Under the pieces are notes generated by a model. That model had not been told where the DNA came from. It worked only from the letters and a program-made list of their open reading frames with translations, and did not search any database. DNA of 64,000 bases, taken from NCBI GenBank assembly GCA_937930635.1, contig CALHCF010000017.1:82724-146723 (forward strand). The letters run 5' to 3'. Both the position numbers and the translations under genes were made by a program. Below are positions 51,523-53,959 of this stretch, in pieces. This DNA is from an uncultured Rhizobiaceae group bacterium. Its GTDB lineage: Bacteria > Pseudomonadota > Alphaproteobacteria > Rhizobiales > Rhizobiaceae. Each line of letters opens with the position of its first letter. Positions within the stretch are counted from its first letter, which is position 1.

Positions 51523-52173
51523 TCAAATTTTGTCTAAAACAAGCGCAATTTCTTCGCTGACACCATCAATGCTGGCCATGCCATCCACTGGCCGCAATTT
51601 GCCCTTGGCGTAATAGTATCCAATCAGCGGTGACGTCTCTTTGTAGTATATCTGCAGACGGGTGCGCATTGCTTCGGCATTGTCATCGGGGCGGCGTTTG
51701 AATTCACCGCCACCACATTTGTCGCAAACGCCCTCAACGTCAGGCTTTTTAAGGCTATCATGATAGCCCTGGTCGCAATTGACGCAGGTATAGCGCCCTG
51801 AAACCCTTTCCACCATCGCGTCGTCGTCAACACGCAATTCCACCACGGCATCCAGATGCGTGCCCCTGTCGGACAACATCGCTTCTACAGCATCGGCTTG
51901 CGTCAGGGTCCTTGGATAACCGTCGAGGATGAACCCTTTGGCACAATCAAGCTGATCAATGCGGTCAGATACAATCTCGTTCACCACTTCGTCTGGGACC
52001 AGCTTGCCAGAATCCATAAGAGCCTTGACCCGCTTGCCGGTTTCCGTCCCGGCAGCAATGGCAGCGCGCAACAGATCACCAGTGGAGAGTTGCGGGATGC
52101 TATGCTTATCAACCAGACGCCGGGCTTGTGTGCCTTTGCCCGCGCCGGGAGGCCCCAGAAGAATCAGTTTCAT
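51523..52173 (-). CDS. adk: adenylate kinase
   Basis: MKLILLGPPGAGKGTQARRLVDKHSIPQLSTGDLLRAAI; zinc LID CVNCDQGYH...CDKCGG. Confidence 0.98.
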   Translation of the reverse strand: MKLILLGPPGAGKGTQARRLVDKHSIPQLSTGDLLRAAIAAGTETGKRVKALMDSGKLVPDEVVNEIVSDRIDQLDCAKGFILDGYPRTLTQADAVEAMLSDRGTHLDAVVELRVDDDAMVERVSGRYTCVNCDQGYHDSLKKPDVEGVCDKCGGGEFKRRPDDNAEAMRTRLQIYYKETSPLIGYYYAKGKLRPVDGMASIDGVSEEIALVLDKI

Positions 52174-53561
52174 TTCTTGCGTTTCCCGGCGCCACCGCGC
52201 TGGCCGGGGCCTTTTGTGCCGCGGGCGTTGCCTTTGGCACCGCGAAGTTTGGATTTCTGAATCAAGCCTTCATATTGCTGTGCAAACAAATGCCCCTGAA
52301 CCTGCTGCACCGTATCCATGGTCACACTCACAACAATGAGCAGCGACGTACCGCCAAGAAAGACGGAAATCCCCAACCCGGTAAGGAACATCTCCGGAAT
52401 CAGGCAGACAAAAACAAGATAAAGAGCGCCCAGAACGGTAACACGGGTCAGGACATAATCGATGTACTCAGCTGTCCGGTCACCGGGGCGGATGCCGGGA
52501 ATGAACCCACCCTGCTGTTTGAGATTGTCAGCCGTTTCCTTCGGATTAAAAACAATGGCGGTGTAGAAGAAGGCAAAGAAGGCAATCATCACACCGTAGA
52601 AAATGAGATAGCCAGGTTGCCCACGGCCCAAAATGGCAGAAACCGTACTGAGAAGATCAGACTGCCCTGGCTGCGTTGAAAAGCCTGTGACGGTTGCCGG
52701 AAGCAGCAACAGCGAAGAAGCAAAAATTGGCGGAATGACACCAGCGGTGTTGAGTTTCAAAGGCAGGTGCGAAGAATCGCCCTGGAACATCTTGTTGCCA
52801 ACCTGACGCTTTGGGTACTGGATCAGCAACCGGCGCTGCGCGCGTTCAATAAACACGATAAAGGCGATCAGCCCGATAATGGCAACGATCACAGCAAAAG
52901 ATGTAAAGGTGGAGATACTGCCTGTGCTGCCTGCATCAAGAAGCTGAGCAAGAGCACCGGGAAGCGCCGCAACAATACCGGCAAAGATAATCAACGAAAT
53001 ACCGTTACCAATGCCCCGGGCGGTTATCTGTTCACCCAGCCACATCAGGAACATCGTACCACCAACCAGAGTTACAACGGTTGTCAGCGTGAAAAACCAG
53101 CCGGGATTAAGCACCATACCGTCCGAAGCCTGGAGACCTGCGGCAATACCCCAAGCTTGCGCGGTTCCAAGTATCACCGTGCCGTAGCGGGTATATTGGT
53201 TGATAACCTTACGTCCCTGCTCGCCTTCTTTCTTCAGCTGCTCAAGGGTCGGCACAACCGACGTCATGAGCTGCATGATAATGGAGGCCGAGATATACGG
53301 CATGATGCCAAGAGCGAAGATCGCTAACCGTTCAACGGCCCCTCCGGCAAACATGTTGACCAGCCCCAGAACGCCCTGGCTCTGCTGCTGGAACGCCGCA
53401 GCCAGTTGTTCCGGATTAATGCCGGGAAGCGGAATATAGGTTCCAAGCCGATAAACGATCAGGGCAAAGAGAGTGAACCAGAGCCGCTTTTTTAGATCGG
53501 TCGCCTTTGAAAAGGTCGAATAGCTAAGATTGGCTGCAAGTTGCTCGGCAGCTGATGCCAT
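52170..53561 (-). CDS. secY: preprotein translocase subunit SecY
   Basis: MASAAEQLAANLSYSTFSKATDLKKRLWFTLFALIVYRLGTYIPLPGINPEQLAA; 10-TM SecY, stop overlaps adk start. ATG at 53561 preferred. Confidence 0.97.
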   Translation of the reverse strand: MASAAEQLAANLSYSTFSKATDLKKRLWFTLFALIVYRLGTYIPLPGINPEQLAAAFQQQSQGVLGLVNMFAGGAVERLAIFALGIMPYISASIIMQLMTSVVPTLEQLKKEGEQGRKVINQYTRYGTVILGTAQAWGIAAGLQASDGMVLNPGWFFTLTTVVTLVGGTMFLMWLGEQITARGIGNGISLIIFAGIVAALPGALAQLLDAGSTGSISTFTSFAVIVAIIGLIAFIVFIERAQRRLLIQYPKRQVGNKMFQGDSSHLPLKLNTAGVIPPIFASSLLLLPATVTGFSTQPGQSDLLSTVSAILGRGQPGYLIFYGVMIAFFAFFYTAIVFNPKETADNLKQQGGFIPGIRPGDRTAEYIDYVLTRVTVLGALYLVFVCLIPEMFLTGLGISVFLGGTSLLIVVSVTMDTVQQVQGHLFAQQYEGLIQKSKLRGAKGNARGTKGPGQRGGAGKRKK

Positions 53562-53620
53562 TTTCGTCTCCCATCCGGCAAAGACGAAGAGCCCTGCCCG
53601 ACTGAATAATAGTTTGAATG

Positions 53621-53821
53621 TTAGTAGAACAGACTGCCCAAATGCGCAAAGGGTGATGATGCCCACGCTTCGCTATTCACACCTGGTAGCGGAATAAAAG
53701 AACCAAGGCGCATCGCAACGAAAGCCAGAAGAAGAAATCCCAGGCTCCGCTTAAGCGTCTTGTTCCGCCAAAGCTGCGAGATTGAGAAATTCGAAACCAA
53801 CTGCTCAATCGGAGATGCCAT
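53621..53821 (-). CDS. free-standing SecY N-terminus-like mini-ORF (TM1 region only)
   Basis: MASPIEQLVSNFSISQLWRNKTLKRSLGFLLLAFVAMRLGSFIPLPGVNSEAWASSPFAHLGSLFY*; 26/55 identical to adjacent SecY by ungapped eye alignment; AAGGA ribosome-binding site 8 nt before the ATG. Confidence 0.7.
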   Translation of the reverse strand: MASPIEQLVSNFSISQLWRNKTLKRSLGFLLLAFVAMRLGSFIPLPGVNSEAWASSPFAHLGSLFY

Positions 53822-53926
53822 CACTCTTATCCTTTGTAAGGCCGGACCCTATCGATCCACGCATTTACCCGCGCTCATAGCGTAAATATGGAGCAGTTGC
53901 AGATTTTTGCCACCCTAAAATAGACA

Positions 53927-53959
53927 AAAGCCCCGAAACGAAAACCGTTTCGGGGCTTT
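53927..53959 (-). terminator. intrinsic terminator-like hairpin between rplO and the SecY mini-ORF
   Basis: Perfect 14-bp inverted repeat aaagccccgaaacg (53927-53940)/cgtttcggggcttt (53946-53959), 5-nt loop; minus-strand RNA ends ...GGGGCUUUUGUCUAUUUUA. Confidence 0.75.

Follow-up and report, generated by a model that had tools for sequence, protein, structure and literature searches.

Why should the beginning of a gene for a membrane channel be present twice at one locus? As an essential gene, secY occurs in a single copy in almost all cases. In the window analyzed here, a 64,000-nucleotide stretch from an uncultured Rhizobiaceae group bacterium (genome G000), a small ORF is nevertheless positioned between rplO and secY on the minus strand, as the initial annotation had reported. 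Its upstream neighbor, rplO, encodes ribosomal protein L15 (53975–54463, minus strand) and is followed on the same strand by an intrinsic terminator (53927–53959), which was identified in a consensus scan and has a similar hairpin visible in the second species discussed below. The terminator after rplO makes secY a separate transcription unit, and the mini-ORF lies in its leader. On its other side, a gap of 59 nt separates it from the full-length, native secY (52170–53561, minus strand; 463 aa), whose ribosome-binding site, GGATGGGAGAC (53566–53576, minus strand), is conserved in the genus.

The ORF was initially listed with 67 codons from a GTG at 53824. The reading frame stands, but the start is more likely the ATG at 53821, one codon further on in the same frame, since in the orthologue of the second species the codon just ahead of the ATG is not a start codon. 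With this predicted start the mini-ORF (53621–53821, minus strand) comprises 66 codons and a stop. A ribosome-binding site had also been proposed, and AAAGGATAAGAG at 53824–53835 (minus strand) is a plausible candidate. A search against Rfam gave zero matches at the locus.

The mini-ORF product resembles the N terminus of the protein encoded next to it. The earlier count of 26 identical positions of 55 is correct and corresponds to 47% identity over residues 1–55 with an E value of 6e-10, and hence the likeness is not due to chance. Moreover, phmmer recovered SecY chains from the PDB (best E value 1.7e-5), while comparison with TIGR00967 gave 11 bits against a cut-off of 253.6, and Pfam and NCBIfam returned sub-threshold matches to the peptide only (DUF1418, E 0.05; SecY, E 0.12). 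Residues 1–54, copied from secY, correspond to the cytosolic N-tail, TM1, and the PLPG turn. Past residue 54 or so the ORF runs through leader DNA instead of SecY and ends in the novel 12-residue tail SSPFAHLGSLFY. Of the coverage first suggested, the N-tail and TM1 are thus borne out, but the start of the plug is not. The hydrophobic segment lies near residues 25–43, with the end of TM1 near residue 43–46, and a single-sequence AF2 model has one long helix at residues 21–42 (mean pLDDT 77). The protein is therefore a SecY homologue that, with 66 residues and one helix, differs from SecY, whose channel has ten TM segments, a plug, and a lateral gate; with neither the plug nor TM2–TM10, it is unable to form one. 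On a crude Hessa-type sum, its TM segment exceeds SecY's own TM1 in hydrophobicity, which, as far as this crude estimate goes, may be what an autonomously inserted protein would need.

Is the mini-ORF a peculiarity of a single assembly? A second genome of the genus, G009 (contig CALIOE010000079.1), carries an ORF at the same place (L003:1501-1698) that encodes 66 aa and is 65% identical to the one in the window. In the tail, 11 of 12 residues are identical between these two sequences (n = 2), in DNA that overlaps a conserved leader element. An assembly artefact was considered and is ruled out, since a second MAG has this diverged orthologue in the same position. A frameshift fusion of the mini-ORF to SecY is likewise excluded: the SecY frame is open upstream as far as 53666 in the window, but in G009 it is closed by a stop a short distance ahead of the SecY start. 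Nine residues are common to both minis and absent from 25 SecYs, among them the TM changes T30L, L34F, and V36A, while at 19 positions, including RLG and IPLPG, both retain the SecY consensus. As judged from these shared residues, the two minis are one orthologous gene with constraints of its own.

Within the genus, the carriers are 2 of 15 genomes, the window genome included. The mini-ORF was not found in the 13 other members, one of which (G008, 87% complete) has no secY match at all, so its locus is absent from the comparison. A contig scan with narrow peptide patterns returned G009 only, and no remnants were seen by eye in the secY leaders of the other members. One member, G014 (L004, L037), is a single contig of 0.9 Mb at 98% completeness, compared with 2.4–4.8 Mb in its relatives, and represents strong genome reduction. 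Beyond the genus, no counterpart with a short open frame was present among the matches listed for the sampled genomes of the family (398; threshold E 1e-10), order (398), and class (190), in a search set covering about half of the known species. The number of matches per genome was one, as expected for secY alone, and no convergent mini-SecY with a second tandem copy was detected in the order and class sets. G789 was rejected as a convergent case, its two matches being full-size and on different contigs in a genome with 7% contamination.

Such a patchy distribution raises the question of whether the mini-ORF is maintained at all, or is a functionless relic of a tandem partial duplication that is slowly decaying. 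The presence in 2 of 15 genomes, the absence of a mini-ORF from close relatives with an un-duplicated leader, and an evolution faster than that of SecY are all as a relic would have it. The pattern of substitution, however, is that of a coding sequence. Differences between G000 and G009 at codon positions 1/2/3 number 21/13/42 (binomial p 7e-5); codons 1–54 alone give 20/13/38 (p 4e-4), and in the 12 C-terminal codons four of five differences are at third positions. NG86 estimates are dN 0.35 and dS 2.0, rough values as dS is saturated, and in the neighboring genes dS is 1.0–2.4 or saturated beyond measurement. For comparison, dN of the SecY N terminus is 0.07, and the mini-ORF thus evolves about five times faster, or is that much less constrained. 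In neutral simulations started from either sequence, open frames with at least 65% identity were kept in 1.5% of runs at a divergence of 0.3, whereas at the realistic values of 0.5, 0.8, or 1.2 not one of 3000 runs kept them. Collectively, synonymous saturation in the neighbors, third-position bias, low dN/dS, and the simulations provide good support for the mini-ORF as a protein-coding gene that has been under purifying selection during most of the period after the two lineages parted. With synonymous sites saturated, the 65% amino acid identity and the lack of stops and indels in both lineages are incompatible, for most of the separation, with neutral drift. Function might still have been lost recently in one lineage, and we regard the relic explanation as improbable overall. 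The constraint at which the initial annotation had hinted, and its suggestion that the duplication is not very recent, are both upheld; the finding of a single genome, or of stops in a relative, which would have spoken for decay, did not materialize.

The origin of the gene can be read from its 3′ end. The segment TCACCCTTTGCGCATTTG (53639–53656, minus strand) matches, at 17 of 18 bases, a promoter-like element before secY in members of the genus that lack the mini-ORF; against the G013 leader the score is 31, whereas 300 mononucleotide shuffles reached 25 at most. In eight mini-less members, the corresponding position ahead of secY is occupied by TCACCTTTTGCGCATTTG or a variant thereof, with a TAAGA-like box about 17 bases further on. 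Since the mini-ORF thus ends in secY leader DNA native to the genus, at the same place as in species without a mini-ORF, a tandem partial duplication in situ is indicated. The leader alignments show how the gene arose: codons 1 to about 54 of secY were duplicated in tandem within the genus lineage, the end of the duplicate was joined to native leader DNA immediately ahead of secY, from which it gained 12 new C-terminal codons and a stop, and the chimeric gene was then retained by purifying selection in two lineages. A copied secY leader ahead of the mini-ORF would show as similarity in the DNA before it, and none was detectable there.

This history bears on another proposal, that the ORF is what remained of an ancestral secY after replacement by a foreign one. 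In its favor, the mini-ORF and the SecY encoded next to it are highly diverged (47% identity). The full SecYs of G000 and G009 are nevertheless positioned inside the genus in the tree, with support of 100/100, which identifies them as native and leaves replacement by a foreign secY without support; the mini-ORF is, moreover, the divergent copy of the two, joined as it is to native leader DNA. We consider the chance that the proposal is correct to be close to negligible. In the best 14-gene tree, G009 branches off at the base of the genus and G000 at another position, so that they are not sisters, although a G000 + G009 clade is not rejected (AU p 0.18). The separate placement implies either an ancestral gain of the mini-ORF followed by several losses, in which case it is dispensable, or that the tree is wrong.

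The same 3′ end permits a reading in which DNA and not protein is conserved, namely an internal promoter for secY at the end of the ORF with the surrounding frame incidental. Eight members of the genus without the ORF carry an element of the type TTTGCGCAT...CTG...TA at the equivalent position before secY, and a promoter at the DNA level can account for the conservation of the C-terminal tail. The tail is therefore ambiguous, protein and promoter-like DNA coinciding there. Such a promoter, however, accounts for codons 55–66 only, and the third-position bias extends through codons 1–54 (see above). Furthermore, the promoter was called by eye, and a scan with the sigma-70 consensus found none. 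As an account of the whole ORF, we deem this very unlikely.

Several other features of the genus's secY leaders were observed. In seven (G013, L039; G011, L040; G007, L038; G004, L028; G002, L029; G010, L043; and G001, L021) an inverted repeat is apparent by eye around the TAAGA box. Its arms seem to change together between species (TGTCTG..CAGACA, GACCTG..CGGGTC, and TGACTG..CGGTCA), and the repeat is possibly an operator or an RNA hairpin. A hairpin of variable length directly precedes the secY ribosome-binding site in several members, for example CAACTGC-TGATTT-GCAGTTG in G007 (z −4.0); its covariation counts are weak, and the copy in the window (53604–53571, minus strand) folds differently. 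In G005 (L047), a membrane protein gene, by eye of the nucleoside-recognition/transport type, lies between rplO and secY, and the end of a similar ORF is upstream of secY in G012 (L042). Given these inserts, the rplO/secY junction has undergone more than one rearrangement within the genus.

If the mini-ORF is selected as a coding sequence, does its product act as a free protein, or does its translation matter in cis? As a leader ORF, its translation rather than the peptide would control secY through ribosome delivery, through coupling across the 59-nt gap, or through peptide-dependent pausing at the conserved SSPFAH(L/M)GSLFY-stop. The ORF is indeed in the secY leader behind a terminator, its last 12 residues are those that are 11/12 identical with four of five differences at third positions, and Sec-related upstream ORFs with arrest feedback constitute a known, patchily distributed class (PMC10987492, PMC7897499). 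The Sec/YidC-related arrest peptides SecM, MifM, VemP, ApdA, and ApdP belong here (PMC7897499, PMC10987492). With these the mini shares its position as a small ORF directly upstream of a sec gene (59 nt), an N-terminal TM segment (near residues 25–43), a lineage-restricted distribution, and possibly a conserved C-terminal end, as read from two sequences in DNA that overlaps the leader element. It differs in that it is homologous to the downstream protein itself and in that its gene neighbor is secY as opposed to secA, secDF, or yidC. It also lacks a RAPP-like or other known arrest motif. One published criterion for arrest ORFs is a spacer of >30 aa between the signal and the end of the conserved sequence (PMC10987492), whereas only about 20 residues follow TM1 in the mini. 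The helix would consequently still be largely within the ribosome at the stop codon, which disfavors an arrest-peptide role. In addition, the junction between the mini-ORF and secY has neither an unusually stable fold nor a shared one (z −0.9 and +1.0), and it is in the TM/PLPG core that the mini is closest to SecY, beyond the needs of a leader peptide. Control in cis is accordingly a rather unlikely, though not an idle, explanation.

The retention of the TM/PLPG core, and not of the end alone, favors a protein function rather than a leader function. Our preferred reading, held at just short of even confidence, is that this tandem-duplicated, selected chimera is made as a free single-span SecY-TM1 microprotein that would act in trans on the translocon. 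In this scenario, the mini-ORF would be translated off the secY transcript, yielding a free 66-residue single-span membrane protein, N-in/C-out, that corresponds to the N-tail and TM1 of SecY. The microprotein would then meet the partners of SecY, be it SecE, other copies of SecY, the quality-control protease FtsH, or the SRP/YidC insertion route, and thereby tune translocon assembly, turnover, or level. Because both would share one transcript, as proposed, its synthesis would be in step with that of secY. That a free first-helix peptide encoded on the secY transcript regulates the assembly or abundance of the translocon in trans is plausible, and we advance it tentatively. Against a microprotein weigh the restriction to two carrier species, which the best tree does not group as sisters, its faster evolution than the SecY N terminus, and a tail whose conservation a promoter could explain.

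MicroProteins are small proteins of one domain that act on the complexes of a larger, related protein; those described are mainly from plants and animals and have soluble interaction domains (PMC5381583, PMC7534434). Like them, the mini is a short protein from one segment of a larger protein (secY codons 1–54), selected as a protein, with a potential interaction surface retained. It differs in being bacterial, in consisting of a single membrane helix, and in its tandem arrangement with the parent gene. No report of a SecY-derived upstream ORF was found in the open-licence literature.

In two species of one Rhizobiaceae genus, then, the start of secY was copied in tandem and became a tiny membrane-protein gene of its own that selection has preserved. 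The birth event is still readable in the DNA, since the tail of the mini is the old leader. If the proposed role is correct, the mini would be a microprotein of a kind rare in bacteria, one that arose when part of a membrane channel gene was duplicated in tandem and that is carried on the transcript of its parent. Cells would then have a novel means of regulating their export channel.
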